DNA from: Rhodobacteraceae bacterium MED-G08
GTDB taxonomy: Bacteria; Pseudomonadota; Alphaproteobacteria; Rhodobacterales; Rhodobacteraceae
NCBI GenBank assembly: GCA_002457055.1
Contig: NTKT01000001.1
Coordinates: 62,001 to 126,000 of the forward strand
DNA: 64,000 nt
Direction of reading: 5' to 3'
Part shown: in pieces, positions 25,779-44,973 of the stretch
Position numbering within the stretch: the stretch's first letter is position 1
Layout of the letters: each line of letters starts with the position of its first letter
Notes under the pieces: generated by a model
What the model saw: only the letters and a program-made list of their open reading frames with translations
Databases searched by the model: none
Told to the model about the DNA's origin: nothing
Program-made: the position numbers and the translations under genes

Positions 25779-26921
25779 ATGAAGAAACTTGATGACTTCG
25801 GATTTGGTACTCAAATCCGCAAATCCCCTTTTTTTGATGCTACAATAGAATGGGGTGCTACGGGCTTTTCTGTATATAATCACATGTATATACCACGAGA
25901 CTTTGGAGATCCTGAACAAAATTTCTGGAACCTAGTTAATGAAGCGATACTCTGCGATGTATCTGTAGAGCGGCAGGTAGAAATTTCTGGGCCTGACGCC
26001 GGAAGATTTGTGCAATTTTTGACACCAAGGGATCTATCCCAAATGAAAGTTGGTCAGTGCAAATATATACTGATAACAAATCAAGACGGTGGACTTCTTA
26101 ACGATCCAGTTCTTCTGAAATTGGCGGATGATCGTTTTTGGATTTCTTTAGCGGATAGTGACATTTTGTTATGGGCACAGGGTGTAGCTGTAAACACAGA
26201 CTATGATGTAAATATTTTTGAGCCAGATGCTTCACCACTACAATTGCAGGGCCCAAAGTCTCGGGATATTATGGTTAAGTTGTTCGGGGAGAGCATCTTA
26301 GATCTCAAATACTATTGGCATCGAGAATATAAATGGAACGGTATTTCTTTGATTGTATCTCGCACAGGCTGGTCTAGCGAACTTGGGTATGAGATCTTTC
26401 TCACAGATCACACAATGGGGAATGAACTTTGGAACCATATAATGTTAATTGGAGAACCCTTGGGGCTTAAACCAGGTCATACATCATCAATCAGGCGTAT
26501 CGAAGGCGCCATGTTGTCTTATCATGCCGATGCTGACATTAGCACCAACCCTTTCGAGCTAGGACTCGATCGGCTTGTAAATATAGATTCATCTCAAGAT
26601 TTTATTGGGAAAAAGGCACTTGTTAAAATCAGAACTGAAGGCGTGGACAAAACTCAGGTTGGTTTAGTAATTGAGTGCGATCCTCTTGGTGGCCCCAATA
26701 CTAAGTTTTGGCCGGTTAAAAAAGGGGAACAAAAGGTGGGGAAAGTAACATCAGCAGTCTACTCCCCAAGGCTTAAAAAAAATATAGCACTTGCGATGCT
26801 TTCCGTTAAATCCCTCGATAAAAGTACAAAGTTCCAGGTCGATACATCACAGGGATCATTTCCAGCTCATATCGTTGATTTGCCATTCTATGATCCAAAT
26901 AAAAGGATTACCAAAAGCTAA
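25779..26921 (+). CDS. GcvT/DmdA-family tetrahydrofolate-dependent demethylase
   Basis: 380 residues. Folate-binding T-protein fold plus C-terminal barrel. Similar to DMSP demethylase DmdA in ICDVSVERQVEISGPDAGRF, LTPRDLSQMKVGQC, LLNDPVLLKLADDRFWISLADSD and PLQLQGPKSRDIM. It differs where DmdA proteins read SGWSKQGG and CPNLIERIE: here TGWSSELGYEIF and HTSSIRRIEGAMLSY. That places it in a DmdA-related branch of aminomethyltransferase/demethylase-like proteins, so the substrate may be DMSP, a betaine or another N-, O- or S-methyl compound. No dmdB/C/D follow directly. Confidence 0.75.
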   Translation: MKKLDDFGFGTQIRKSPFFDATIEWGATGFSVYNHMYIPRDFGDPEQNFWNLVNEAILCDVSVERQVEISGPDAGRFVQFLTPRDLSQMKVGQCKYILITNQDGGLLNDPVLLKLADDRFWISLADSDILLWAQGVAVNTDYDVNIFEPDASPLQLQGPKSRDIMVKLFGESILDLKYYWHREYKWNGISLIVSRTGWSSELGYEIFLTDHTMGNELWNHIMLIGEPLGLKPGHTSSIRRIEGAMLSYHADADISTNPFELGLDRLVNIDSSQDFIGKKALVKIRTEGVDKTQVGLVIECDPLGGPNTKFWPVKKGEQKVGKVTSAVYSPRLKKNIALAMLSVKSLDKSTKFQVDTSQGSFPAHIVDLPFYDPNKRITKS

Positions 26922-26954: not shown

Positions 26955-28298
26955 TTACATTGTTTCTTCTGACGATTGAAGAGCTTCTTCTAAACTATCT
27001 GCGAGCAAGTCTGTTAGCTCATTTATCTCTGCTTCATTAATAATATACGGGGGCGCTAATAATATATGATCTCCTATTTTCCCATCAATCGTACCCGACA
27101 TGGGATAGCATAATAGTCCCCTCTGCTTTGCAATAGCCTTAATCTTTCTTGCTATAAAATAGGAGGAAGAAAACGGCTCTTTAGTTTCCCTATCTTCCAC
27201 AATTTCTATACCATAAAATAATCCTCTACCGCGAATATCTCCAACATGGGTATGTTGACCAAATTTAGTATCCAAAGCATATTTAAATTGATGTCCCATA
27301 ACATTTACGTTTTCTAAAATATTATCGTCTAGCAGAACATCCAAAACGGCATTTGCCGCCGCGGCTGCCATGGGGTGACCCAAGTAAGTATGACCGTGTT
27401 GAAAAAACCCAGAACCATTTTTAATAGCTGCATAAATTTTGTCGGTACAAATAGTGGCACCTATTGGCTGATATCCAGCCCCAAGACCCTTAGCGATACA
27501 TACAATATCAGGAGCGATAGCCTCTTGCTCATAAGCAAAAAGAGTACCAGTGCGTCCCATACCACACATAACTTCGTCTAAAATCAAAAGTATCCCATGG
27601 TGATCACAAATTTCTCGGATCGTTTTAAAATATCCATCGACTGCAGGAACTGCCCCGAGGGTTGCACCAACAACAGGTTCAGCAACAAATGCCATTACAT
27701 TTTGTGAACCAAGTTTCTCAATAGTTATTTCTAATTCGCCGGCAACACGTTGGCCAAATTCATAGTCCGTTTCGTAATCATGCTTCTCTCGGTATGCATA
27801 GCAGGGAGCTATGTGATGCGTGTCAATCAACAGTGGAGCAAATTGTGAGCGTCTCCATTCGTTGCCACCAACCGCCAATGCTCCCAGTGTATTACCATGG
27901 TAGCTTTGCCGACGGGCAATTACTTCTTTCCTACCAGGCTGGCCAGTCTCAAGAAAATATTGTCTTGCTAATTTCAAACCTGCTTCAATCGCCTCTGAAC
28001 CCCCTGAGACAAGGTAGACTTGGCTTAGATCACCAGGTGCGTTAGTTATGAGTTTTGTAGCTAATTTCTCGGCAGGTTCAGAAGAAAAAAAAGACGTATG
28101 AGCATATGCCAAGACATCTAACTGTTCATGAAGTGCATTGATTATTTTGGGATGCGAATGGCCTAAGCATGAAACTGCCGCTCCACCCGAAGCATCTAAA
28201 TATTTCTTACCAGACTCATCAAAAAGAAAACACCCATCACCTCCAGAAGCTATCGGCAATTCATCATGTGTATGCCTGGGAAAGATGTGGCTGACCAA
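26955..28298 (-). CDS. Class III PLP aminotransferase
   Basis: 447 residues with a TTG start preceded by AGGAA. Ornithine/GABA-type fold-type I enzyme: SGGSEAIEAGLKLARQ, RRQSYHGNTLGALAVGG, LILDEVMCGMGRTG (PLP Asp), CIAKGLGAGYQPIG with the Schiff-base Lys near 275, and QHGHTYLGHPMAAAAA. It follows phnY at 96 bases on the same strand, so it may belong to the phosphonate operon, perhaps as a second amine-phosphonate or product transaminase. Substrate not deducible. Confidence 0.82.
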   Translation of the reverse strand: MVSHIFPRHTHDELPIASGGDGCFLFDESGKKYLDASGGAAVSCLGHSHPKIINALHEQLDVLAYAHTSFFSSEPAEKLATKLITNAPGDLSQVYLVSGGSEAIEAGLKLARQYFLETGQPGRKEVIARRQSYHGNTLGALAVGGNEWRRSQFAPLLIDTHHIAPCYAYREKHDYETDYEFGQRVAGELEITIEKLGSQNVMAFVAEPVVGATLGAVPAVDGYFKTIREICDHHGILLILDEVMCGMGRTGTLFAYEQEAIAPDIVCIAKGLGAGYQPIGATICTDKIYAAIKNGSGFFQHGHTYLGHPMAAAAANAVLDVLLDDNILENVNVMGHQFKYALDTKFGQHTHVGDIRGRGLFYGIEIVEDRETKEPFSSSYFIARKIKAIAKQRGLLCYPMSGTIDGKIGDHILLAPPYIINEAEINELTDLLADSLEEALQSSEETM

Positions 28299-28394: not shown

Positions 28395-29843
28395 TTATTC
28401 TGGCCATGGCAATGAGTATGTTTTTAAGTTTGTAAAGAAACGCATCGCCTCAATCACACCCTCTTTCACAGCATTTCCACTATCTTTTATTCCGCCAAAA
28501 GGTGACATTTCAATTCTGTAACCTGGCTGTTCCCAAATATTACACGTACCCACATCCAAACTGTTTATGTATTTTATTGCTCTATTTAAATCATTGGTAC
28601 AGACACCTGAAGACAAGCCAAATTGAGTGCTATTGGAAATTCTTATTACCTCTTCATCTGAGTCTGGAACTCTCACCATAGGTATGATCGGGCCAAAGGT
28701 TTCTTCCATTACCAACTCACTATTATGGGGAACTTTATCAACAACTATTGGAGGGAGAAGAGCGCCTTGCCTACCAGGATGATATAATATTTCAGCACCT
28801 TCTTGCTCAGCCTGTAGCACTCTATTTTCAAATAGTTCAGCCGCTTGATCGTGTATCACGCAACCAAGCTGAGTTTCTGGATCTTGTGGATCTCCAAACT
28901 TGATTTTTTTGGCTTTTTCTAACACAAGTGGAACAAAAGCATCAGCTACACTTTCTTGTACTAAAATGCGTTTTATTGCAGTGCAGCGCTGACCAGAGTT
29001 TCCAGTAGCTCCCGCTACTGCAATAGTAGCAGCCTTATCCAAATCGCTGCCTGAAAGATCATTACAAACAATTAACGGATCATTACCACCTAGCTCAAGC
29101 GCCTGCCGTTTGTACCCAGCCTTTGATGCTATCAACTTACCTACGGGGACACCACCAGTAAAAGTTATAATGTCGATGTGCTCGTTTAGCATCATTTCTT
29201 CACCAATATCTTCAGGTAGGCCAGTAACAATCTGAAACATCTCTGGAGGCAAACCAGCCTCATATAAAATATCAGCCAAAGTTATAGCAGTGAGCGGTGT
29301 AAGTTCAGTCGGCTTGCATACCATACAGTTATTTGTAGCAATGGAAGGGGCTATCTTGTGACTTACCATATTAAGTGGGTGATTAAAGGGTGTAATGGCA
29401 CTAATTGCTCGGACAGGTTCTCGCTTAGTGAAGATTTTTCTTTCTTTTCCATTATGAGTTAAATCACACGAAAATATTTGCCCATCATCGTTCATTGCTT
29501 GAGCTGCGGCGAATTGGTAAACGTCTTGTGCTCGTTTAGTCTCATATATTGCATGCTGATGGCATATCCCCAATTCTAGAGTAAGCCATTTGGCTAAGTA
29601 ATCCTGTCTTTCTGCAATTATTTCACCAGTTCTTTGAAGAATCTGGCTCCGCTCATATCTACTAAGTGACGGCTTATAGTCAGACGCAATTTTAAAGGCT
29701 TTTGCTGCGTGTTGAGCAGCACCAGCTGGTACAGTACCGACAACTTCATTTGTGTAAGGGTATTTTACTTCAATGACTTTTTCTGTAAGGACCTTTTCTC
29801 CACCGATCCGCATTCCCTCATGACGTATATCGTTTTTTTTCAT
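28395..29843 (-). CDS. phnY: Phosphonoacetaldehyde dehydrogenase
   Basis: 482-residue aldehyde dehydrogenase. Catalytic Cys in [12 protein letters not shown] (~290), general base Glu in LELGGND (~256), NAD-binding FTGGVPVGK. The C-terminal [16 protein letters not shown]...KEGVIEAM and TYSLPW are what I know from PhnY. Oxidises phosphonoacetaldehyde to phosphonoacetate, which PhnA (13 bases upstream in the operon) hydrolyses. Neighbours make the assignment firm. Confidence 0.9.
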
Positions 29844-29856
29844 TATTTAATTTCCT

Positions 29857-31101
29857 CTATGATGCTGCTGCTTGTGTTGCGTAGAAAAACGCATCAAAAT
29901 TTCTTAGTTTAGGTGCATTTGGCAAATCCATAACCTTATTAACAATGAATGGTACGTCCTGTTCTGTTAAACCACCGTGTGATCTAAGTGGCTCTTTTAG
30001 CGCTGCAAGATCATGCCGGTCTTCACTTGTCCCAATGGTAAGATTTTCCGTTGAAATCATAACTATGTCACCAATGCGATCACCTGGCAGATCGTAATTA
30101 TTAATTGCTTCATCTTTGCCCATAACTTTTAAAATTTCCGGACACGCTGCAATTCTGCTAATTATGTCATCGACGTCACATTTATCTGGCAAATAAGCTG
30201 TTGCAAAAGAACCTAACGCGCCATGATGAACAACGTAAGGATCAGTTATTGGTAAAATGACCCTTGCTTGTCCTGCGCCTAGCCACTCATCCATCTTATC
30301 TTGCATATATATAACCGCAGGCATTTTATTATCATCATGTTTAGGTTTCATTCCGTGATCTGCAGTAACTACGATTGCAACATCAAACTTTTGCAACTCG
30401 CCTAAATATCGATCGAACATTGCATAAAAATCTTTAGCGCCCTGCTCCTGTGGGGAAAATTTATGCTGGACATAATCTGTTGTTGATAGGTACATAATAT
30501 CTGGCTTCATTTCCTTTAATAATTTGATACCGGCAGCAAAAACAAACTCCGATAATTCTGCCGAATAAACCTCAGGAACAGGCATATCCAACCAATCACT
30601 AGCATTTTCAACACCATTATTCGCTATCGATGTTTCACCGGCTCGCTCCGCTGAAAAAGCTATTGCCCGTCCCTCATCATATTCAAGGCCAGCACTCAAC
30701 AGCGCGCGCAACTTATCTTTCGCCGTAACCATAGCAACGCGAGCTCCTGCCTCATAAAATTTAGAAAAAATCGTCGGTGCTCGAAGGAAGCGCACATCAT
30801 TCATCATCACTTCTTCACCCGTATCAGGATCAAAAAGATAGTTTCCACAAATCCCATGTATTGCAGGTGGACGCCCAGTAGCAATTGACAAGTTGTTCGG
30901 ATTTGTAAAGCTGGGAATTACAGAATGGGCAATTCGATCTGTGCCAGTTTCACGCATAAGTTTTAAATTTGGCATCAATCCTTCAGCTATCGCTACATCC
31001 AAATATTCAGGCTCACAACCGTCAAGGCAGATGGCGACAGCGCATCTTTTTGGCATTGAATAGGTTCTTTCGTTGGCAATTACATTGGGTACAAGTGTCA
31101 T
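29857..31101 (-). CDS. phnA: Phosphonoacetate hydrolase
   Basis: 414 residues, alkaline-phosphatase superfamily, zinc-dependent. Cleaves the C-P bond of phosphonoacetate to acetate and phosphate. Metal/nucleophile motifs: ICLDGCEPEY near residue 24, the Thr nucleophile region SFTNPNNLSIATGRPP near 65, YLSTTDYVQHKFSP near 207 and TADHGMKPKHDD near 250. Between phnW and phnY in one operon, with 29- and 13-base gaps. Not the unrelated alkylphosphonate 'PhnA' of E. coli. Confidence 0.92.
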   Translation of the reverse strand: MTLVPNVIANERTYSMPKRCAVAICLDGCEPEYLDVAIAEGLMPNLKLMRETGTDRIAHSVIPSFTNPNNLSIATGRPPAIHGICGNYLFDPDTGEEVMMNDVRFLRAPTIFSKFYEAGARVAMVTAKDKLRALLSAGLEYDEGRAIAFSAERAGETSIANNGVENASDWLDMPVPEVYSAELSEFVFAAGIKLLKEMKPDIMYLSTTDYVQHKFSPQEQGAKDFYAMFDRYLGELQKFDVAIVVTADHGMKPKHDDNKMPAVIYMQDKMDEWLGAGQARVILPITDPYVVHHGALGSFATAYLPDKCDVDDIISRIAACPEILKVMGKDEAINNYDLPGDRIGDIVMISTENLTIGTSEDRHDLAALKEPLRSHGGLTEQDVPFIVNKVMDLPNAPKLRNFDAFFYATQAAAS

Positions 31102-31130
31102 TAAATTTACCTTTTAAACGTTATTTAATA

Positions 31131-32318
31131 TTAGGACTGAAGCCGTTTTCTTTCTTCCAAAGCTTTTGACGGAGGTGAAGCATCAGTCACGCCCATCTCG
31201 CAAAGGCTCGCTCGTGCTGCATCAACTACTTTAAGCATTATTTGATCATCCATTTGTCCAATACAACCAATTCTAAAACTCTCCACGACGGTTAACTTTC
31301 CCGGATAGATAATGAAACCTTTTGATTTCATTAAATCATAAAACCTCGTAAATTCGAAACTTGGATCTGCTGGACAAAAAAATGTCACAATTATTGGTGA
31401 TAACCAGCGTTCACTCAAAAGGGTTTCAAAACCTATAGATCTCATCCCTGACACTAGAGCATTTTGATTTTTAGTATATCTGGCACCACGTGCAATTACT
31501 CCACCCTCTTTACGATGAGACTCAAGTGCTACTAAAAAAGCGGCAAGGACATGAGTTGGTGGTGTATAACGCCATTGTCCAGTTTTATTCATATGGGACC
31601 ACTGATCATGAAGGTCTAAACAAAGCGAATGGCTATTCCCTTCTGCCGCTTCCAAAGCAGACTTTCGAGCCAGAATAAAACCAAACCCAGGCACACCCTC
31701 AATACATTTGTTCGCCGATGAAACTATGGCTTCAAATTTTATTTTATTTGGCTCAACTAAAATAGCCCCAAATGCCGACATACTATCTATAAGAAGTTTC
31801 CGCCCTGCATTATATGTTGCTGCAGATATTTCCTCTATTGGATTAAGTATACCAGAACTCGTCTCACAGTGAACTGCAACAACATGTGTTATATCATTAT
31901 CTGCTTCCAGAATTTCAGCGACTTCTTCCCCACGAGGAGGAAGATAATCGCCTTTATCAAGGACAATATGATCACGTTTTAAATACTGTAGAGTTTTTGC
32001 AGCTCGTTGACCATATGCGCCATTAGAAAGTACTAACAACTTTCCATCCCTTGGTACAAGTGAACCTAACATGGCTTCAACCGAAAAAGATCCACTACCT
32101 TGCATTGGAACACAATCAAAACTTTCGTTACCGCTGCCCAACATTTCTATAAGTGTATCTCTCATTAGTTGAGTCATTTGCCGAAAATCGCCATCCCAAC
32201 TGCCCCAGTCTTTAAGCATAGCTGACTTAGTATCATACGACGTTGTAAGCGGACCTGGTGTGAGTAAAAAAGGTTCACCCAATCGCGGCGCCTCAATTTC
32301 TGATTCTTCCAATCGCAT
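31131..32318 (-). CDS. phnW: 2-aminoethylphosphonate-pyruvate transaminase
   Basis: 395 residues, class V aminotransferase. Converts 2-aminoethylphosphonate and pyruvate to phosphonoacetaldehyde and alanine. Characteristic LLTPGPLTTSYDTKSAML start, DWGSWDGDF, QGSGSFSVEAM, AVHCETSSGILNP, IDSMSAFGA and the PLP Lys in SSANKCIEGVPGFGF near 205. First gene of the minus-strand operon phnW-phnA-phnY, divergent from the Hyi-like/PbfA-like pair. Confidence 0.92.
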   Translation of the reverse strand: MRLEESEIEAPRLGEPFLLTPGPLTTSYDTKSAMLKDWGSWDGDFRQMTQLMRDTLIEMLGSGNESFDCVPMQGSGSFSVEAMLGSLVPRDGKLLVLSNGAYGQRAAKTLQYLKRDHIVLDKGDYLPPRGEEVAEILEADNDITHVVAVHCETSSGILNPIEEISAATYNAGRKLLIDSMSAFGAILVEPNKIKFEAIVSSANKCIEGVPGFGFILARKSALEAAEGNSHSLCLDLHDQWSHMNKTGQWRYTPPTHVLAAFLVALESHRKEGGVIARGARYTKNQNALVSGMRSIGFETLLSERWLSPIIVTFFCPADPSFEFTRFYDLMKSKGFIIYPGKLTVVESFRIGCIGQMDDQIMLKVVDAARASLCEMGVTDASPPSKALEERKRLQS

Positions 32319-32360
32319 AAAAGATCTCCACTTTAAGACTGTACTAATTATTACTTTTAA

Positions 32361-32376
32361 TCATACAACAGTATGA
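32361..32376. promoter_or_regulatory. Inverted repeat in the phnW / hyi-like divergent promoter region
   Basis: TCATAC-AACA-GTATGA, a perfect 6+6 bp repeat in the 88-base gap between two divergent phosphonate units. A natural place for one regulator to control both; no regulator gene is adjacent in the window. Confidence 0.45.
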
Positions 32377-32406
32377 GAAGTTTTGATACCATGACACTAC
32401 GGGCCC

Positions 32407-33177
32407 ATGATGAACTTTGCACATAATTTTTCAGCTAATACTGGCTATCTTTGGAAGGAGCTGTCTTTTCTAGACAGATTGGCTATTGCAAAAAAATATG
32501 GTTTTGAAAGTTTAGAATTTCACGACGAACCACATTACGAAAACTTAACAGAATTACAGTTAATTCTCTCCAAACATGAGCTGCCGGTTAACGGCATGAA
32601 TGTCAGAATGGGTGAAACTTTTGGCTGCGCATCGCTTAGTCAATACAACGAGAAATATGTAAATGACATAAATGATGCTGTTGAAATCGCAACGGCATTA
32701 AATATTCCTGCAATTCATGTAATGTCAGGTATAACAAATGCTGATGATGCAAATGAAACTTTTATATCCTCACTAAACTATGCATTGGAAAACTCAACTC
32801 AAATAATTCTAATCGAACCGGTATGTAATGAACAGCTACCTGGTTATTTTCTCAAAACAATTGAGCAGGCTGCCGGAATACTGAAAACTATAAATCATCC
32901 ACGTTTGAAAATCTTATTTGATTGTTACCATGTATACAAAGAGAGTGAAAATCTCATGGATGCCTTTGCTAAGCATGTAAGTAACATTGGTCATATTCAA
33001 ATTTCTGCTGCTGAAAACAGAGCAGAACCTCATCCGGGCATATTGAATTACTCCAAGATTTTACCACAGATGGAAGCACTCGGATATAAAGGGGCATTTG
33101 GTTGTGAATACAGGCCACAAGCTGCTACGGAGGATGGTCTGGCATGGAGAGATAACTTCAGAAGAGATACAAGATGA
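32407..33177 (+). CDS. Hydroxypyruvate-isomerase-like TIM-barrel protein
   Basis: 256 residues, xylose-isomerase-like TIM barrel of the Hyi family. Metal-ligand Glu/Asp/His positions look kept: LIEPVCNEQLPGYFL (Glu), LFDCYHVYK (Asp, His), GHIQIS (His) and FGCEYRP (Glu). Hyi proteins isomerise hydroxypyruvate and tartronate semialdehyde, but this subfamily is broad. The stop overlaps the PbfA-like start by 4 bases (ATGA), so the two are translationally coupled, tying it to phosphonate use. A role on a C2-C3 oxo-phosphonate or downstream product is only inference. Confidence 0.75.
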   Translation: MMNFAHNFSANTGYLWKELSFLDRLAIAKKYGFESLEFHDEPHYENLTELQLILSKHELPVNGMNVRMGETFGCASLSQYNEKYVNDINDAVEIATALNIPAIHVMSGITNADDANETFISSLNYALENSTQIILIEPVCNEQLPGYFLKTIEQAAGILKTINHPRLKILFDCYHVYKESENLMDAFAKHVSNIGHIQISAAENRAEPHPGILNYSKILPQMEALGYKGAFGCEYRPQAATEDGLAWRDNFRRDTR

Positions 33178-34529
33178 GAAAAAAAAAGAATGTAAATGAA
33201 CCAATTGACACAGAGGGTGATATCAACCTCTCTCCAAGACGGTTGGAATGGTCGAAAAACAATATCAACACAAATTCGCAGAAATTGTTATCAGAAGACT
33301 CAAAGTACTTCTTACATCAATCACTCTCAACACCTTGTTTAAATGTTCTAGAAGCAAGTGACGGTATATATCTGGAGGATCTCCAAGGTCGTAAAATTAT
33401 GGACTTTCATGGGAATAGTGTTCATCAAGTTGGTCATGGAAATAAGCGAGTTATAGCTGCAATTAAAGAGCAGCTCGACATTCTCCCATTTTGTCCTCGG
33501 CGTTACACGAATAAGGTTGCAATTGAACTTGCAGAACGCCTTACCTCTCTCGCACCTGGAAATTTGAATAAAGTTCTTTTTGCACCCGGTGGTACCAATG
33601 CAATCGGCATGGCGTTAAAGCTGGCTCGATATGCAACTGGTAGACATAAAACAATTTCCATGTGGGATAGTTTTCATGGTGCTTCTTTAGATGCTATCTC
33701 AATCGGTGGAGAAAAATTGTTTCGAAAAGATGTAGGTCCGCTCATGCCTGGCACGGAACATATCCCTCCTCCCACAAGAGGAAAATGTCATTTCAATTGC
33801 TCAGATGAGAGCCATGACGGATGTATCAACTATTTAGAGTATGTTATCGAAATGGAGGGAGATATTGGAGCCCTTGTTGCCGAACCCATGAGGTGGACAA
33901 CCGTAGAATTACCACCGCCAAACTATTGGACAAGAGTACGGGATATTTGCACAAAGAATGATGTTCTGTTGATTTTTGATGAAATACCCTCTGCCTTAGG
34001 TCGAACAGGCAAAATGTTTGTGTGTGAACACTTTGACGTTGAGCCCGACATGTTAGTCATAGGTAAAGGCTTAGGTGGAGGAGTTTTCCCGATGGCAGCA
34101 TTACTTGCCAACGATGCTTTAAATGTCGTCGAAGATAAAGCCTTAGGGCATTACACTCATGAAAAAAGTTCTGTTGGTTGTGCAGCAGCGCTAGCGACAA
34201 TTGATTGTCTAATGGAAGACGGATTACTTGATAATGCAGTAACTCTGGGCAATTCAGGTTTACAGGAATTGGAAGCTCTTAAACTAAAGCATTCAATAAT
34301 TCATGAAGTAAGAGGTCTTGGTTTATTCTATGGAATAGACTTACGAGTAGATGGCAAACCGGCCTCGAACGAAGCGGATGCTATCCTTTATCACTCACTA
34401 TCAAATGGATTGAGCTATAAAGTAGGGGGTGGCTCAATATTAACGCTTTGTCCTCCGCTTACAATTAACAAAGATGAGTTAACGCAAGCTTTCAATATAA
34501 TTGAAAATGGAATTAATAGCTTAAACTAG
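33174..34529 (+). CDS. PbfA-like (R)-1-hydroxy-2-aminoethylphosphonate ammonia-lyase
   Basis: 451 residues, class III aminotransferase fold with PLP. I recall the segments DSKYFLHQSLSTPCLNVL, MDFHGNSVHQVGHGN, MWDSFHGASLDAISIGGE and GHYTHEKSSVGCAAALATI as hallmarks of PbfA, which turns (R)-1-hydroxy-2-aminoethylphosphonate into phosphonoacetaldehyde and ammonia. The Schiff-base Lys is in VIGKGLGGGVFPM near 300 and the PLP Asp in LIFDEIPSALGRTG. Next to phnWAY, whose PhnY would consume the product. A plain aminotransferase is the alternative. Its ATG overlaps the Hyi-like stop. Confidence 0.7.
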   Translation: MRKKKNVNEPIDTEGDINLSPRRLEWSKNNINTNSQKLLSEDSKYFLHQSLSTPCLNVLEASDGIYLEDLQGRKIMDFHGNSVHQVGHGNKRVIAAIKEQLDILPFCPRRYTNKVAIELAERLTSLAPGNLNKVLFAPGGTNAIGMALKLARYATGRHKTISMWDSFHGASLDAISIGGEKLFRKDVGPLMPGTEHIPPPTRGKCHFNCSDESHDGCINYLEYVIEMEGDIGALVAEPMRWTTVELPPPNYWTRVRDICTKNDVLLIFDEIPSALGRTGKMFVCEHFDVEPDMLVIGKGLGGGVFPMAALLANDALNVVEDKALGHYTHEKSSVGCAAALATIDCLMEDGLLDNAVTLGNSGLQELEALKLKHSIIHEVRGLGLFYGIDLRVDGKPASNEADAILYHSLSNGLSYKVGGGSILTLCPPLTINKDELTQAFNIIENGINSLN

Positions 34530-36836: not shown

Positions 36837-37883
36837 TTATCGCGGCGGTAGTGGCATCCAGCTTGGCACTGAAACATCAGCATGCGCAAACTGAGGCATT
36901 TTTGCAGACAAGTCTTCCATATTTTTTATGTCATTTTCATTTAAAAATGCTTGTGTGATTAGTGTCGGAGGCACCACAACGTTACTACCTGGATTTTCAC
37001 CAGCAAGCATCATTGCAAGCGATCTCACTGAAACTTCTCCAACCACTGCAGGATTTGTTGCAACCGTAGCAGCCCATGCAGAATTTGGCTCTCTCATAGC
37101 TGAAATATCAGCGGTAGAGACATCAGCTGAATATATGTCGATTTGATCTGTTAAACCTGCTTCGTCAACTGCGATTTTAACACCCTTGGCAAACTCGTCG
37201 TAAGGAGCAAACATGACAGTTATATCTGAATTTGCTTGCAAAACTGATCTCGCCTGGTTCGCATTAGAGTTAGCTATTGGATTATCGAGAGTGCCGAATT
37301 GAGCAACTTCCTCGATTCCTGGATTTGCTGCTTTAATGTCTTCCCATGCAGCATGGCGACGATCTAGCGGAGCAATACCCGGCACATAAACATAGCCGGC
37401 TTTCCAACTTGTGCCATTATCTATTATTGCCTGCTCCAAAGCCAATTTACCCAGTAGGTAGTCTGATTGTTCTATCTGAGGTATTGCTGGATTTTCTACA
37501 TTAACGTCAAAGGCGACAACTTTAATACCAGCATCGACTGCTCTTTGAGCTGCATCTCGCATACTCTCGGTCAGACCATGTTGAATTACAATACCATCAA
37601 CACCAAGTGCAATGGCTTGATCTACCATATCAGATTGGAGAGCCGCATCCTGTCTGCTATCAAAAACTCTCAAGTCGACGCCTAGAGCTGCAGCTTGGGT
37701 TTCTACTCCCGAAAGATAGGCCTGAAAAAAATCACCCGTAGATAGATATCTAACGAGCGCAATTTTTACGTCACCCGGATTGTCAAACGGTGCTGGCATA
37801 TCACCAGCTGTCACCGCGGTTGAAAAAAGCGCAGGTAGAACAACGCTTCCTCCTAGTATTTTTAGTATTGATCTTCTAAACAT
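36837..37883 (-). CDS. Ribose-type ABC transporter substrate-binding protein
   Basis: 348 residues, periplasmic binding protein type I (RbsB-like): KIALVRYLSTGDFFQAYLSGVETQAAALG, DSRQDAALQSDMVDQAIALGVDGIVIQ, VVAFDVNVENPAIPQIEQSDYLLGKLA. The N-terminus RRSILKILGGSVVLPALFSTAVTAG reads as a twin-arginine-like signal peptide (RRxxLK). Third gene of ATPase-permease-binding protein operon, divergent from mtnK-mtnA-aldolase. Context suggests a methylthioribose, 5-deoxyribose or similar pentose ligand; this is inference. Confidence 0.88.
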   Translation of the reverse strand: MFRRSILKILGGSVVLPALFSTAVTAGDMPAPFDNPGDVKIALVRYLSTGDFFQAYLSGVETQAAALGVDLRVFDSRQDAALQSDMVDQAIALGVDGIVIQHGLTESMRDAAQRAVDAGIKVVAFDVNVENPAIPQIEQSDYLLGKLALEQAIIDNGTSWKAGYVYVPGIAPLDRRHAAWEDIKAANPGIEEVAQFGTLDNPIANSNANQARSVLQANSDITVMFAPYDEFAKGVKIAVDEAGLTDQIDIYSADVSTADISAMREPNSAWAATVATNPAVVGEVSVRSLAMMLAGENPGSNVVVPPTLITQAFLNENDIKNMEDLSAKMPQFAHADVSVPSWMPLPPR

Positions 37884-37917
37884 AATTACCTCCCATGGTA
37901 TTTTAAAAGCCTGTTAT

Positions 37918-38922
37918 TCAGTGGCTAGTTTTTCGCCCCTTCGATGAAAGAGCAAATGTAAAAATGAGTGCAATAACTAGTACACTCCCCTTTACAAAAT
38001 CTTGAGTATAATACGGCGCGTTCATCATCGTCAAACCTTGAAGAAGCACTCCAACAAAGAGAGCACCTATTGCAGTGCCAAATGCATTAGGCTTCGCCGC
38101 TCCTAACACGGCAAAACCTATCAATGCCGCAGCAACAGAATCCAGTAACAAGTTATTTCCTGAAGCTATATCACCACGACCTAATCTGGCAGAAAGTAGA
38201 ATTCCGCCTATCGAAGCAGTAATCCCTGAAATGACATAAGCAAGAATTTTATATTTATTAACATTCGCTCCAGCCAAAGCAGTGGCAGTCTCGTTTGAAC
38301 CTATTGCATACATAAGCCTACCATGTCTGGTAAGCTCCAAAAAAAGCCAAATAAATACCCCAACCAATAAAAATATAATTACTGGAATTGGTATAAGGTT
38401 TTCTAAGAAAAAATCTAAACGATGTCGACCAAGCCATAAAAAGCTTTGTGAGTAAACACCCTCTGCTGTCTCACCACTAGGAAGCTTCATACCAGTAGAG
38501 ATAGATCTACCTTCCGTAGGTATGCGCTGCAGTCCGATAAGTAAAAACATCATGCCCAGCGTGGCTAATAAGTCTGGAACCCTGGCCTTCACGATTAGAA
38601 GCCCATTTACCAAACCTACAAATGCTCCCATAATAAGACAAGCAATTATGGCCGTGAAGGCTGACATCTCAAGTACGACCATCACATACGCTGAGAGCAT
38701 AAGTGCAGTGGTAGCCACAGAACCTATAGATAAATCAAATCCATCTACCACCAAAGTTGCAGTAACACCGAGCGCCAAAATACCCGTAATAGAAACGGAT
38801 TGAAAAATAAAAACAGCTGAGCGTGGACCGGCAAAACCCTCTGCAACTATAGAGAAGAACAACACCAAACCCAAAAGTAACAATAGAAAACCATAGCGGA
38901 TTGCAAAACTTCTCATATTCAT
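37918..38922 (-). CDS. Ribose-type ABC transporter permease
   Basis: 334 residues, RbsC-like inner-membrane permease with about eight to ten helices. ALGVTATLVVDGFDLSIGSVA, PDLLATLGMMFLLIGLQRI and AVLGAAKPNAFGTAIGALFVGVLLQGL match the family. Follows the ATPase gene by 9 bases and precedes the binding protein gene by 34. Confidence 0.9.
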   Translation of the reverse strand: MNMRSFAIRYGFLLLLLGLVLFFSIVAEGFAGPRSAVFIFQSVSITGILALGVTATLVVDGFDLSIGSVATTALMLSAYVMVVLEMSAFTAIIACLIMGAFVGLVNGLLIVKARVPDLLATLGMMFLLIGLQRIPTEGRSISTGMKLPSGETAEGVYSQSFLWLGRHRLDFFLENLIPIPVIIFLLVGVFIWLFLELTRHGRLMYAIGSNETATALAGANVNKYKILAYVISGITASIGGILLSARLGRGDIASGNNLLLDSVAAALIGFAVLGAAKPNAFGTAIGALFVGVLLQGLTMMNAPYYTQDFVKGSVLVIALIFTFALSSKGRKTSH

Positions 38923-38931
38923 AATACTTTT

Positions 38932-40461
38932 TCACCCATTTAAACTTCCTCTTGCTTCAGCTAAAGTTTCAGACGGTTTTCCACTATAGAGAGAAAGAAT
39001 ATCTGCAATATTGTTCTCTTTATTCTCGAAGATACCAGAATAAGAACCTTCATGTAACACAACGATTTTATCAGCAATTTCTACTGCTTCGTCGAGCTCG
39101 GCGACGAAGACTAATGTTGCTCTATCTTTAGATGACTGCCTTATCTGGCTTCCAATGTCCCTACGCGCTTTTATATCAACTCCTTGAAAGGGCTCATCAA
39201 GTAACAAAACTTCTGATTTTTCTGAAAGCCAACGACCAATCATTACCTTTTGCTGATTGCCTCCTGACAGTGTAGTAACTAAATCAAGCTCTGACTGACA
39301 CACTATCCCTAATTCTGAGATCGACACAGTTGCTTTTCTTTCTAAATTTTTTGGCTTCAGAAATGAAAACCAACTGTGCCGATCCAAGAACGGGAGAACC
39401 ATATTATTTGTAATGTCGAAGTCAGAAACCACAGCATTTGTAGACCTATCCTTCGGACACATAAAAATACCTTTTGATATGGCATCGGCAGGACTTTTAG
39501 GATTATAAGGCTCGCCGTGTAAAAGCATGTCTCCCTCTAATAGAGGGTTCAAACCAAAAATAGCAGAGGCTATTGCCGTTTTTCCGCTGCCTAATAAGCC
39601 AGTTATTGCAATGATTTCATTTTTATAAAATACCAAATCAAAGGGACTACTATATTTTGAAAGTTTTGCGTCACGCAATTCAAATATGGGCGTCCCCTTT
39701 TCTTGCAACTGCAATTTACCATGAACCATTTTTTGACCAAGCATTGCAGTAACTGCGCCCTCGTAATCTAGAGAAGGACCATCAAAAATACCAGAAATCT
39801 TACCATCTCTCATGGTAACTATACGGTCGGCAATAGCTCTAATGTCTGACATGCGATGTGAGATATAAAGTATAGCGACACCTTGCTCTTTTAAATTGGC
39901 AAGAAGTTTAAATAGGCGTTTAGCTTCGTTAGCAGAAAGAGACGAAGTTGGCTCATCAAGTATGAGTAGTTTTGGTTTGCGAGTCATTGCTCTTGCGATT
40001 GCAATCATTTGCCTGTCCGCTAGTCCCAAATCTTTAACTTCAGCTGTGATATCTAAATCTAAGTCCATTGTTGCTGCTACTTTTCTGGCTTCAGCTCGTA
40101 ATTTTTCTGTTCGTAGAAAAAAACCTGCACTACTGTCAGCTAATCGATCAATCATGAGATTTGACGCTACATCAAGGTCCGGGATTACTCCATTATTAAT
40201 AGTTTGATGAACCGTAACTACGCCGGACTGAAACGCATCTGAAGGTGAAGCTGGGGAGAAATTTTCTCCAAAAAGAGTTACGGTTCCTGCATCTGCATTA
40301 TGGACACCACACAATATTTTCACCAGAGTAGATTTACCTGCACCATTTGCTCCCATCAGCACAGTAATTGTGGCTGAAGGCAATTCTAGGTCAACCTCTT
40401 TGAGCACTCGGTTAGGCCCAAAAGATTTTACAATACCTGAAATCTGGCAAGCTAGCTCCAA
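38932..40461 (-). CDS. Ribose-type ABC transporter ATP-binding protein (two ATPase domains)
   Basis: 509 residues, RbsA/MglA-type fused ATPase. First domain: Walker A GANGAGKSTLVKIL near 36, signature-like LADRQMIAIARA, Walker B LLILDEPTSS. Second: GLLGSGKTAIASAI near 290, signature LSGGNQQKVMIGRW, Walker B VLLLDEPFQGVD. The start is TTG with a strong TAGGAGGA ribosome site eight bases upstream. First gene of the importer operon. Confidence 0.92.
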   Translation of the reverse strand: MELACQISGIVKSFGPNRVLKEVDLELPSATITVLMGANGAGKSTLVKILCGVHNADAGTVTLFGENFSPASPSDAFQSGVVTVHQTINNGVIPDLDVASNLMIDRLADSSAGFFLRTEKLRAEARKVAATMDLDLDITAEVKDLGLADRQMIAIARAMTRKPKLLILDEPTSSLSANEAKRLFKLLANLKEQGVAILYISHRMSDIRAIADRIVTMRDGKISGIFDGPSLDYEGAVTAMLGQKMVHGKLQLQEKGTPIFELRDAKLSKYSSPFDLVFYKNEIIAITGLLGSGKTAIASAIFGLNPLLEGDMLLHGEPYNPKSPADAISKGIFMCPKDRSTNAVVSDFDITNNMVLPFLDRHSWFSFLKPKNLERKATVSISELGIVCQSELDLVTTLSGGNQQKVMIGRWLSEKSEVLLLDEPFQGVDIKARRDIGSQIRQSSKDRATLVFVAELDEAVEIADKIVVLHEGSYSGIFENKENNIADILSLYSGKPSETLAEARGSLNG

Positions 40462-40504
40462 CGTGTTGTCCTCCTAAAACTTATGCTTACAAGAGGCTTT
40501 TCAA

Positions 40505-40523
40505 TTGTCAACACTCTTGACAA
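40505..40523. promoter_or_regulatory. Palindrome in the divergent promoter of importer and mtn operons
   Basis: TTGTCAA-CACTC-TTGACAA, perfect 7+7 bp, in the 117-base gap between the ABC operon and mtnK. Each arm also offers a TTGACA -35 element, one for each direction. A further GTCAA half-site follows at 40526-40530. It may be the operator of the SorC-type regulator encoded at the end of the mtn operon, or simply paired -35 boxes. Confidence 0.5.
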
Positions 40524-40578
40524 AAGTCAAAATTTGCCAATGCTTGAAATATCAGTGTTTTTTGTTAAGAGGCTCCAA

Positions 40579-41841
40579 ATGAAAGATGATTTAGAGTATG
40601 AACCTCTGAATTCCAAAACCCTTCCAGAACGATTAAAAAATTTAGAAAGTATAACGTCGTTAATTGGTAATAAATCTGAAGAATGGAAAGTCACAGAAGT
40701 CGGCGATGGAAACCTAAATCTCGTATTTGTTGTTGAGGGGAAACAAGCAAGTCTCATTGTTAAACAAGCTTTACCATATGTACGCTTAGTTGGTGACAGT
40801 TGGCCCCTTCCATTGAGCCGTTCATTCTTTGAACATGAGATACTTTGCAGGCAGGGAGAAAGAGATCCAGGCAGCGTCCCTCAAATCTATTATTTTAATA
40901 AAAAACAAGCAATTATTGTAATGGAAATGCTCTCTCCTCACGTAATTCTACGAAAAAAATTAATCGCTGGAGAATACGTAAATGGGCTTGGGAAAACTCT
41001 AGGTAATTTTTGTGCACGAACTGCGTTTAGAGGATCTGATCTTTCATTGTCAACAAAGGAGAAAAAGAAAGATACTGCACTGTTCCAAGGCAATGACGAA
41101 CTCATGGCAATCACCGAAAACCTTATCTTTACTGATCCTTACTTTGAAGCAGAGATGAACCACCACACAGAAGGACTTGAGCCAGTCATCAAGACGCTAA
41201 GATCCGATGTTTCTTTAAAACAGGAGGTTCAGCATATGCTTCTAAAATTCACCTCAAATACGGAAACATTACTTCACGGCGACCTTCACTCCGGATCAGT
41301 TATGTGTACTGACAGCGAAACGAAAATTATAGATCCGGAATTTGGGTTTTACGGGCCTATGGGTTTCGATATTGGTATGCTGATATCTAACTTTTTAATG
41401 GCTTATTTCAGCCAACCAGGTCATAGAACTGAAAATACATTAGAAGAGTACCAAAATTGGATACTATCAACTATTGAAGAGATATATTCAACGTTCATAA
41501 GTGAATTCAGCAATCTTTGGCGCAATGAAAGGCAGGGGATTTTATTTCCAAAAAGTCTTTTCGAAAATCAAGGACATAGCTCAGAAGGTGCACTGAACGG
41601 AGTGCTTAACCATATTTGGTCAGATGCATTGGGTGTATGTGGGATTGAAATGCATAGACGTATTCTTTCCCTTGCTCACAATGCAGACTTTGAAGAAATA
41701 GCTGACTTAAAAACACGGGCAGAACTGGAAGCTAGAAACCTCATTATGGGTCGCCAACTCATTCTTGAAAGAAACCAAATCAAAGATATTCAGGCAATTC
41801 AAAGTCTTGCAAGAAAATATAATTCGGAGAAACACCTATGA
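40579..41841 (+). CDS. mtnK: S-methyl-5-thioribose kinase
   Basis: 420 residues from the ATG at 40579 (AAGAGG six bases before); an ATG at 40483 would run through the putative operator and add 32 residues with no family likeness. Phosphorylates methylthioribose to methylthioribose 1-phosphate. MtnK signatures: [24 protein letters not shown], catalytic [12 protein letters not shown] and [15 protein letters not shown]. First of four genes on the strand; its end overlaps mtnA by 4 bases. 5-Deoxyribose could also be a substrate. Confidence 0.92.
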
Positions 41842-42947
41842 AGGTAAACGGTACTCATTACCGCTCAATTTGGTATGATCATGAACTTTCAAAAGTTAAA
41901 ATAATAGACCAGCGCTGGTTACCGCATGATTTCAAGGTCGTTGAACTAGAGACATTACAAAGTTTTGCAACTGCGATAAAAGATATGTGGGTTAGAGGGG
42001 CACCATTAATTGGGGCAACGGCGGCTTATGGAGTAGCTATAGCTTTGGAACATGATGCATCTGACAACGGATTAAAAAATGCATACGATACTCTAATCCA
42101 AACCCGCCCAACAGCAATTAACTTACGTTGGTCACTTGACCGAATGCAAACTGAGTTAGCAAACGTTGGAGAAAGTCAACGTCCAGCAGTTGCTATGGAA
42201 ATTGCACATAGAATTGCCGAAGAAGATGTGGAAATAAATAAAAACATCGGCGAATTTGGATTAAAGATAATCAAAAAATTAGCTGAAACAAAAAAACCAG
42301 GAGAGCCTGTACGTTTGCTGACCCATTGTAATGCTGGTTGGCCTGCTACCGTCGATTGGGGGACTGCAACCTCTCCTATGTATCATGCGCACAATGAAAA
42401 CATTCCAATACATGTATGGGTTGATGAAACAAGACCCAGAAACCAAGGAGGAATGACGGCTTGGGAATTACAGAGCCACGGCATCAGCAATACTTATATA
42501 ACAGACAATGCGGGCGGTCATCTTATGCAAAAAGGCTTAGTTGACATGGTTATTGTTGGTACCGATAGAACAACCGCTCAAGGAGATGTGTGTAACAAGA
42601 TTGGAACTTACCTAAAAGCTCTTGCCGCTCATGACAATAAAGTACCTTTCTATGTTGCATTACCTTCTCCAACCATAGATTGGCGAATAAATGATGGTCT
42701 TACGGATATTCCGATTGAAGAGCGACCAGAGAGGGAAGTTACTCATATTTTAGGTAGAAACTCACACAATGATATAGCAGAAGTTCAAGTCACCTCCGAG
42801 GGTGTTCCTGGTGGCAATCCGGCGTTCGATGTAACACCCAATCGACTAATAACTGGCTTGATAACTGAGCGAGGTGTTTCGGAAGCGTCTAAAGATGCAT
42901 TAGCAGAAATGTTCCCAGAAATGGCTGGAGCCACAAAGAATGATTAA
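41838..42947 (+). CDS. mtnA: Methylthioribose-1-phosphate isomerase
   Basis: 369 residues. Isomerises methylthioribose 1-phosphate to methylthioribulose 1-phosphate. Motifs: [13 protein letters not shown], catalytic Cys in [18 protein letters not shown] near 165, [11 protein letters not shown] and the catalytic Asp in [19 protein letters not shown] near 243. THCNAGW in place of the more common THCNTGA places it in a branch I associate with mtnK-linked operons. Overlaps the aldolase-dehydrogenase start by 8 bases. Confidence 0.92.
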
Positions 42948-44973
42948 AAATAATTATAAGGAAAAAGACGCTCAAACCTGGACGTCTGAAGCGTCCAAAG
43001 ACGATGCTGATCAACATTTAGCACTACGGGTTTATACCTCTCGATTAATTGGTCAGAATCCTGATCTTGTAATGCATGGAGGCGGGAACACTTCGGTTAA
43101 AGTGGAAAGAAAAAATCTTTTTGGGGAAACCTGCAAAGTTATGCACGTCAAGGGTTCTGGGTGGGATTTGGACACAATACTTGCGCCAGGGCTTCCAGGC
43201 CTTTGGTTGGATCCGCTCAAGAAATTGCGAGAACTTGAGCAGCTTTCCGATGAGAATATGGTAAATATACAACGCGCTAATTTGCTAGATAGTAGCTCAC
43301 CCAACCCATCTGTAGAGACTTTGTTGCACGCATTTCTTCCGCATAAGTATATTGATCATACACACGCAACTCCATTTCTAATTCTGGCAAATTTACCCAA
43401 CGCCACTGAGGTGTGCAAAGATATATTTGGTGAAAAGCTAGGTATTGTTCCATATATCATGCCTGGATTTGCTTTAGCAAAAAAAGCGGCAGAAGTTTTT
43501 GAGCAAAATCCAAGCGTAGAAGGCCTAATGCTCTTGGGACATGGTCATTTTGCCTTTGGAGAGACTGCAAAAGAAAGTTATGATCAAATCATCGTGCATA
43601 CTCAAGCAGTAGCCGACTATCTAAAAATGGAGAATCCAACAAACCTTTTCACTCGCAAACCCCATAAGGCAAGCGGTGTATTTCCAATCATACGAGGCCT
43701 GATAGGTGATATGATTGGACCAAATTCACCTATGCCGATAATGGATCTCAGGAACGGAAAAGACGAACTTCAATTCCTGAAACGCAATGATCTTGAAGAA
43801 CTCTCAACTAGAGGGACAGCCTCTCCAGATCACGTGATCCGCATAAAAGGTAGACCTTTAATCTTAAAGGAGTCTGTTTGGTCTAGGGGCAGAGAGGCAA
43901 TTAAAGAAGAATTGGATAAATATGCAAAAGAATATAAAGCGATGTTTGAGCGCCAGGCGCCAAAAGCCGACCAGCCCAAAACAATGTTGCCTACTGATCC
44001 GAAAAATATTTGGATGGAAGGTATCGGCCTAATTGGATTGGGCGCAAATGCAAAGGCAGCCAGCATAGCAGGAGATCTTGTAGTTCAAAACGCACGAGTG
44101 AGAGCTATTGGCGAAGATGCCGGAGGATTTAGGCCGATCTCCGAAAAAGACTTATTCGATTGCGAGTATTGGTCACTTGAACAGGCAAAGCTAGGAAAGG
44201 GTGCACCACCCAAATTTCAAGGTAAAATTGTGATGATAACTGGCGGCTCTGGAACAATCGGCTTTGCACTAGCTAAGGCCTTTTCTAAGCTTGGGGCACA
44301 AACCATTCTTGTAGACAAAGACGAGATAGCTTTGGAAGAATCCGTAGCTAAACTTGGCGTTGGACACAAATATTTTCCAATTGACGTAACTCATTCCGAT
44401 GCAGCCAACCAAGCCATGTTGGCTGCTATAAATAATTTTGGTGGTTTAGATATATTAATTTCCAATGCCGGAGCCGCGCATGCAGGTCCAATGCTGGGCA
44501 TTTCAAATGAAGAATTGCGGAATGCCTTTGAATTGAACTTTTTCTCTCATTACAGTTTTTCGACGGAAGCGGCAAAAATTCTGAAAGATCAAAATCGCGG
44601 CGGCCAAATTCTGTTCAACATATCAAAGCAAGCAGTGAACCCCGGCAAGAACTTTGGTGCCTATGGGCTTCCAAAGGCCACAACTTTTTTCTTAATGCGA
44701 CAGTTAGCACTTGAACTGGGGTCTGATGGAATTCGTGTGAATGGTATAAATGCGGATAGAATTCGTTCCGGTCTTCTTACCGATGACTTTATATCATCCC
44801 GAGCTAAATCCCGTGGAGTTTCAGAGTCTGAGTACATGGCAGGGAACCTACTAAATAAGGAAGTTACAGCTGAACATGTTGCAGATGCATTCACAGCGTT
44901 GGCTTGTGCTGAAAGCACAACTGGACATGTTATGACCGTGGATGGTGGTAATATAGAAGCAAGTTTACGGTAA
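42940..44973 (+). CDS. Bifunctional class II aldolase / short-chain dehydrogenase (RhaEW-like)
   Basis: 677 residues. N-terminal ~400 residues: class II aldolase/adducin fold with [16 protein letters not shown], zinc-site HTHATPF near 145 and [11 protein letters not shown] near 195. From ~425: Rossmann [17 protein letters not shown], and catalytic YGLPK (YxxxK) near 565. The same architecture is known in RhaEW, the rhamnulose-1-phosphate aldolase/lactaldehyde dehydrogenase. Coupled to mtnA, it should split methylthioribulose 1-phosphate (or 5-deoxyribulose 1-phosphate) to DHAP plus an aldehyde and oxidise or reduce the aldehyde; the substrate is inferred from context. Confidence 0.85.

Follow-up and report, generated by a model that had tools for sequence, protein, structure and literature searches.

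An isomerase-like gene coupled to pbfA in a phosphonate island of Rhodobacteraceae bacterium MED-G08, an apparent remainder of a larger lost gene set

In a 64,000-nucleotide stretch of the draft genome of Rhodobacteraceae bacterium MED-G08 (assembly GCA_002457055.1, contig NTKT01000001.1, positions 62,001–126,000; hereafter the window), a minus-strand phnWAY operon for the breakdown of 2-aminoethylphosphonate (AEP) stands head to head with a plus-strand pair consisting of an isomerase-like gene and pbfA. The locus raises the question of how these units came to face each other and what an isomerase would do beside PbfA. PhnWAY together with PbfA is an ordinary, already published pathway; the unusual part seems to be the isomerase-like gene coupled to pbfA, the remainder of a larger gene set that was lost. 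A hydrolytic amino-phosphonate pathway, an ancestral operon and a deletion of ∼13.6 kb are in our judgement very probably the best overall explanation. In the ancestor, phnW would have faced a regulator and a long operon with the order importer, aminotransferase, alcohol dehydrogenase, isomerase and pbfA. As sequence comparison shows, the deletion, whose size is taken from the relative G540, extended from the region upstream of phnW to the last codons of the dehydrogenase gene and left the isomerase–pbfA pair head to head with phnW. The isomerase, which the tree described below places in the 2-oxo-tetronate isomerase lineage, may have been recruited to feed PbfA, a possibility suggested by the linkage that we rate somewhat below even.

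The isomerase–pbfA pair, the upstream cassette and the junction

The initial annotation of this island, made from the sequence alone, had correctly placed a PbfA-like gene in the divergent unit but omitted the isomerase-like gene with which that unit begins (Table 1). The stop codon of the isomerase gene overlaps the start of pbfA by 4 bp (ATGA). Among the PbfA loci of relatives (the best 80 of 481 found in genome contigs), the isomerase is present in 12, in each immediately before pbfA. With the pbfA start taken as the in-frame ATG closest to the isomerase end, the genes share 4 bases in seven of the 12, 17 bases in L012 and 23 bases in L026, and are separated by one base in L017, L018 and L034. 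The window, these 12 relatives and one further locus (L014) form a supported clade of 14 rows; its members are related, so the linkage counts are not independent cases. phnA lies in the same locus in nine of the 12 and in the genome in all of them.

Upstream of the isomerase, a dehydrogenase gene is found in 11 and an aminotransferase gene in ten of the 12 loci, the remainder being cut by contig ends. The aminotransferase of L009 passes one 4-aminobutyrate (GABA) transaminase model (TIGR00700, 552.2 bits, cut-off 506.65) and fails four others; the alcohol dehydrogenase passes none. Further upstream lies either a Ugp-type ABC importer (L011 and L017, with part of it available in L009) or, alongside additional genes for alcohol and aldehyde dehydrogenases, a TRAP importer (L012, L016, L021, L028 and L031); the contigs of L010, L018, L026 and L034 end before this region.

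A survey of 394 genomes of the family, with thresholds of E = 1e-50 for the isomerase and 1e-130 for PbfA, gave isomerase matches in 134 genomes, PbfA matches in 41 and, as read from the two lists, both in 22. The two genes are less than 5 kb apart in four of the 22 (the genome of the window, G376, G399 and, with a fragment, G496) whereas the other 18 have them on separate contigs or at distances above 800 kb. G376 and G496 appear to be identical to the genomes of L028 and L018 and hence add no linkage cases. G399, which belongs to a different genus, carries the cassette (identities of 52% for the isomerase, 72% for the dehydrogenase and 81% for both the aminotransferase and UgpB) ∼4 kb from a pbfA of another lineage, with no phnWAY in the 20 kb examined, and is one independent case of linkage between cassette and pbfA. 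A spread of the isomerase through the class was rejected, as only one of 385 sampled genomes, that of the window itself, passed E = 1e-75; a plasmid search gave nothing above ∼40% among the 30 records listed of 145.

Comparison with the nearest relatives, which are marine Rhodobacterales draft genomes, indicates that the divergent layout is a deletion scar. Homology to the phnW side of G538, G539 and G540 stops at positions 32367, 32358 and 32360, respectively, and homology to the dehydrogenase–isomerase border of their pbfA loci (L009, L010 and L011 in the same order) begins at 32367. In G540, a single contig carries both flanks, and their end points (16199 and 29843 of the reversed stretch) are separated by 13,644 bases. 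The intervening block encodes three regulators (a LysR-type protein with best model phn_lysR at 263.4 bits against a cut-off of 341.1, a MocR-type protein and a second LysR protein), DUF47 and PiT-type proteins, a UroD-like protein (PF01208, 30.4 bits), a Ugp-type importer, the aminotransferase and the dehydrogenase. At the junction, 27 bases match the last dehydrogenase codons in 26 positions for L009, 25 for L011 and 22 for L010, and in 16–20 positions for the tails of eight more distant loci; the next best place for the L009 tail on either strand of the window has ten mismatches. This remnant now reads T-V-stop-E-V-L-I-P-stop, with one sense codon turned into a stop. Because it persists at the junction, the block was once present and was lost on the branch of the window. 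The initial annotation had the enzymes right but did not recognize the deletion behind the divergent layout and the absent importer and regulator.

Other genes recur around these loci. The PiT-type phosphate transporter and DUF47 gene lie between the LysR regulator and the importer in the relatives (L195:10536–12244) and would fit export of surplus phosphate. The UroD-like protein of the block (L195:9056–10375; present in G540, G538 and G539) is 60% identical to one encoded beside the G399 isomerase (L173:12059–13381). A PehA-like hydrolase of the sulfatase superfamily is encoded beside pbfA in L017 (11389–12954; 446.5 bits) and in G399 (L173:5795–7312; 392 bits, cut-off 900), with a relative beside pbfA in L018 (L018:1957), and perhaps releases phosphonates from esters.

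Family and possible role of the isomerase

The best-fitting models for the isomerase-like protein are OtnI (2-oxo-tetronate isomerase) and Hyi (hydroxypyruvate isomerase), and it falls below the cut-off of each (185.5 against 325 bits and 156.2 against 353.45 bits). The shortfall against OtnI is not decisive, because the isomerase of G469, encoded beside OtnK and LtnD, misses the same cut-off (191.9 bits). The AlphaFold2 model superimposes on E. coli YgbM (PDB code 1k77) and on a Brucella protein (3ngf; TM score 0.88). Glu137, Asp172, Gln198 and Glu234 are invariant in a 12-row alignment and coincide with Glu, Asp, Gln and Glu of both structures; we take these residues to be the metal ligands of the family. 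An RHEP motif of 1k77 and 3ngf is replaced by RAEP in the window, the 12 relatives and G399, although RAEP is not exclusive to them and also occurs in the isomerases of G020, G350 and G198.

In a tree of 44 rows, 40 of them different, G399 joins the window clade in a supported group (100/97) that is sister to G020, G276, G469 and G350, the whole being supported at 100/99. A neighbour scan of the sister group, covering G469 and G020, found the isomerase with OtnK (496.6 bits, cut-off 350) and LtnD (380.9 bits, cut-off 350) in G469 (locus L177) and with OtnC (310.4 bits, cut-off 250) in G020 (locus L171). Since the sister group includes members in otn operons, the window gene probably descends from the OtnI lineage. 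No otnK, otnC or ltnD is present among the identified neighbours of the window isomerase or its relatives, as scanned for selected genes rather than for the whole genome. The predicted protein shares its fold and the aligned residues of its putative metal site with the OtnI/Hyi enzymes, and is sister to isomerases some of which belong to otn operons, but it differs from OtnI and Hyi in falling below both cut-offs, in its RAEP motif and in its linkage to pbfA.

We consider it about equally likely that the isomerase acts on a hydroxylated C2 phosphonate and that its role lies apart from phosphonates. The first possibility, which extends the overall explanation and which we put forward tentatively, is that it interconverts 1-hydroxy-phosphonoacetaldehyde, the phosphonate analogue of tartronate semialdehyde, and 2-hydroxy-1-oxoethylphosphonate, and hence also the enantiomers of the former. 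Together with an aminotransferase (that of the cassette or, in the window, PhnW) and the dehydrogenase, it would convert 1,2-dihydroxyethylphosphonate or (S)-1-hydroxy-2-aminoethylphosphonate (S-HAEP) to the R enantiomer (R-HAEP) for PbfA, by a route independent of PbfF. Hydroxypyruvate isomerase interconverts tartronate semialdehyde and hydroxypyruvate, and the match of the four putative ligand columns to 1k77 and 3ngf agrees with this reading, as do the adjacency to pbfA maintained in 12 relatives (by overlap or a 1-base gap) and, in G399, the location of the cassette ∼4 kb from a PbfA of a different lineage. PhnW slowly yields an aldehyde from R-HAEP, tentatively 1-hydroxy-phosphonoacetaldehyde, the breakdown of which its authors likened to that of tartronate semialdehyde (PMC8154272). 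Against this, the substrate is putative, the term dihydroxyethylphosphonate turned up in a single paper, mentioned in passing as a methyltransferase substrate (PMC8417944), and the aminotransferase and dehydrogenase are gone from the window. Spelled out in full, the proposal is a previously undescribed peripheral pathway in which an OtnI-derived isomerase, an alcohol dehydrogenase, a GABA-type aminotransferase and a dedicated importer would take a hydroxylated C2 phosphonate (1,2-dihydroxyethylphosphonate or S-HAEP) through 1-hydroxy-phosphonoacetaldehyde to R-HAEP for PbfA, cut back in the window to isomerase and PbfA beside PhnWAY, where PhnW could supply the transamination; in this specific form it is rather unlikely.

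The second possibility, held just as tentatively as the interconversion itself, is that the three cassette enzymes (isomerase, dehydrogenase and aminotransferase) act on a different substrate, such as a sugar acid or an amino alcohol, and share only the locus with pbfA. The tetronate-operon members of the sister group (the L177 OtnK and LtnD and the L171 OtnC, all above their cut-offs), the two different importers that serve the cassette (Ugp-type ABC or TRAP) and the match of the aminotransferase to a GABA transaminase model would agree with such a role, which is harder to reconcile with the absence of otn genes among the identified neighbours of the pbfA-linked isomerases, with the linkage of the cassette to two PbfA lineages and with the retention of the isomerase beside pbfA in the window once the block had been deleted.

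On the phosphonate reading, the window isomerase would parallel PbfF (2-amino-1-hydroxyethylphosphonate racemase), a pbfA-linked enzyme that brings another form of HAEP to PbfA, but PbfF is an NAD-dependent pfam02826 protein (PMC12366243), whereas the gene beside pbfA here encodes a PF01261 TIM barrel and has no match other than PF01261; the comparison applies to this gene and not to the rest of the genome. PbfA and PbfF were both discovered by asking which unexplained genes accompany AEP genes (PMC8154272, PMC12366243), and uncharacterized open reading frames beside AEP importer genes have been remarked on (PMC8316502). The set of isomerase, dehydrogenase and aminotransferase genes is a further group of this kind, present in marine bacteria and associated with two lineages of PbfA. 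We found no description of the isomerase–pbfA linkage or of the set in searches of the open-access literature, judged mostly from titles and the beginnings of abstracts, and a term search of PMC10590968 gave no 'isomerase'. If the set does make R-HAEP from another phosphonate, the known enzymes would understate the breadth of marine phosphonate use, and genomes that carry the deleted block could be set against those that lack it as a natural comparison.

PbfA and the PhnWAY pathway

For PbfA, Pfam returns only the generic class III aminotransferase domain, so generic annotation alone would be misleading. The PbfA tree comprises 122 rows: 80 genome-contig relatives, three plasmid sequences, 27 family-survey loci (from the best 30 of 41 family matches), L173, L181, L182, the window and eight members of aminotransferase families. 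It was built by a quick method with midpoint rooting, and branches are long for most of the aminotransferase rows, as they are for the Vibrio row. All 114 PbfA rows, including the window, form one clade with a support of 100, and the eight class III aminotransferase-family rows fall outside. The Vibrio row, a plasmid pbfA located between phnW and phnX and distinct from the assayed Vibrio splendidus sequence, which the tree left out, has no resolved place within the clade. The patterns FHGA and GHYTHEK occur together in 112 of the 113 fetched PbfA rows (the exception being L078) and in none of the eight aminotransferase-family rows; the window protein carries both. These patterns were picked by us from an alignment (A2) whose rows are themselves part of the 113.

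In the tree, the window PbfA falls with proteins of gammaproteobacteria (70–74% identity), an affinity that is likely to reflect horizontal acquisition, and is 47% identical to the Ruegeria PbfA, the usual type in the family, and 50% identical to a Vibrio parahaemolyticus protein. These identities of no more than 50%, and a match to the generic PRK06082 model (651.9 bits, cut-off 467), speak for an ordinary aminotransferase or for a lyase acting on a different amino alcohol, an explanation that we regard as improbable given the PbfA equivalog score well above its cut-off, the clade position and residue patterns, and the genomic context (phn genes in nine of the 12 clade loci, phnA in all 12 genomes). 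An ordinary aminotransferase is rejected by the tree and the residue patterns. Both contradict the grouping with ordinary aminotransferases that the initial annotation had named as the first part of the outcome that would overturn its assignment, and its proposal of a PbfA-like ammonia-lyase is supported at the level of score, clade and motif. A genomic link between pbfA and phnWAY exists in the window and in the relatives.

Table 1 Features of the phosphonate island (positions in the window)
Feature	Position	Strand	Basis
PRK07483-type class III aminotransferase, downstream of phnY	26955–28298	−	NF005685 747.9 bits, cut-off 485; PbfA model only 282.6
PhnY, phosphonoacetaldehyde dehydrogenase	28395–29843	−	TIGR03250 743.9 bits, cut-off 635.65
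PhnA, phosphonoacetate hydrolase	29857–31101	−	TIGR02335 487.5 bits, cut-off 407.55
PhnW, 2-aminoethylphosphonate:pyruvate aminotransferase	31131–32318	−	NF010006 548 bits, cut-off 296; TIGR02326 472.2 bits, cut-off 400.8
Deletion junction	32360–32394		Flank homologies meet; dehydrogenase-tail remnant 32368–32394
OtnI/Hyi-like TIM-barrel isomerase, pbfA-linked	32407–33177	+	PF01261 116 bits; NF043033 185.5 bits, below cut-off 325; model pLDDT 81.8; TM 0.90 to 1k77
PbfA	33174–34529	+	NF049939 665.8 bits, cut-off 525; inside PbfA clade

The genes for PhnW, PhnA, PhnY and PbfA are all intact open reading frames, and the first three occur together, each above its NCBIfam equivalog cut-off, which bears out their earlier assignment; the interval then given to the island (29857–34529) starts at PhnA and leaves PhnY outside. 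By family, PhnW would convert AEP to phosphonoacetaldehyde, PbfA would form the same aldehyde and ammonia from R-HAEP, PhnY would oxidize it to phosphonoacetate and PhnA would cleave this to acetate and phosphate. The reactions of the four enzymes were established by earlier work, and the family scores uphold the enzyme set for the proposed route from AEP to acetate and phosphate via phosphonoacetate. Among complete genomes, pbfA is present in 17 of 75 phnWAY clusters (Zangelmi 2021, PMC8154272); in Hyphomicrobiales and Rhodobacterales, 121 of 145 phnA homologues are clustered with phnY, and 50 of these clusters also contain pbfA and 35 pbfF (Ruffolo 2025, PMC12366243). Stappia stellulata grown on AEP co-produces PhnWAY and PbfA (PMC8316502). 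The window has the same four enzymes as the published phnWAY–pbfA clusters (PMC8154272, PMC12366243), but differs in a PbfA of a separate lineage, in the absence of any AEP importer found and in an isomerase gene overlapping pbfA.

Downstream of the operon, the PRK07483-type aminotransferase gene also adjoins phnY in G538, G539 and G540. A DmdA-like protein of the GcvT family (25779–26921; 380.5 bits against the dimethylsulfoniopropionate demethylase cut-off of 410) is likewise retained beside the phn genes in these three genomes.

Integrity of the junction and the missing importer

Several points weigh against the overall explanation. Although it lies in the clade, L014 has a pbfA locus that lacks the isomerase. 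The draft genome (39 contigs) is 86.6% complete, so that the lost genes could be in its missing portion. Some 3.3 kb beyond the window lies a gene for a UgpB-like importer paralogue (63% identity), together with one for a 52% identical UgpC. The loss of the regulator and of part of the region upstream of phnW raises the question of whether phnWAY and pbfA are expressed; a promoter scan of 32250–32480 gave one weak site, compared with a mean of 0.6 in shuffled sequences. Finally, in pairwise Nei–Gojobori comparisons (own script), the dN/dS of the isomerase against G538 (0.228 at a dS of 0.14) exceeds that of PbfA (0.075).

Against G539 and G540, the window gives dN/dS values of 0.064 and 0.053 for PbfA and of 0.128 and 0.113 for the isomerase. 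The isomerase of G538, which kept the block genes, gives similar values against the same two genomes (0.140 and 0.106), and for both proteins the values are about equal from the window and from G538. Because of this likeness, the isomerase–pbfA pair shows no sign of decay after the deletion, although the latter may be recent.

No exact match longer than 7 bases is shared by the two parental flanks, which makes a repeat-driven misjoin unlikely, even if this check used 185 and 150 bases of the flanks of relatives and not the true parent. The two best full-length matches in the genome to each of the lost aminotransferase and dehydrogenase are only 33–34% identical, so that their retention elsewhere in the draft was rejected; a search for the UroD-like protein, run without a positive control, gave no match in the draft. 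An assembly error at 32358–32367, with the 13.6 kb block present in the organism, is improbable, since the draft status of the genome and the presence of the block genes in G538, G539 and G540 (split over contigs in the first two) are outweighed by a flank match too short for an overlap-based misjoin, by a junction without any N whose remnant has acquired a stop, and by the lack of a good match to the lost aminotransferase and dehydrogenase elsewhere in the draft.

As far as tested, the earlier statement that the island contains no phosphonate ABC transporter also holds. A search that detected PhnD-family proteins in 12 of 14 control genomes found none in the whole draft genome (86.6% complete), and one PhnS2-type AEP-binding protein used as a query, without a positive control, had no match. 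The ABC transporter genes at 36837–40461 encode a Peripla_BP_4 protein with a weak RbsB match and a BPD_transp_2 permease. This sugar-like set, after which come APH-family, IF-2B-family and aldolase/short-chain dehydrogenase proteins, was rejected as a phosphonate importer. The whole segment (36837–44970), which consists of this sugar-type transporter, the APH-family kinase, the IF-2B-family protein and an aldolase–short-chain dehydrogenase fusion, presumably resembles a system for methylthioribose or 5-deoxyribose salvage.

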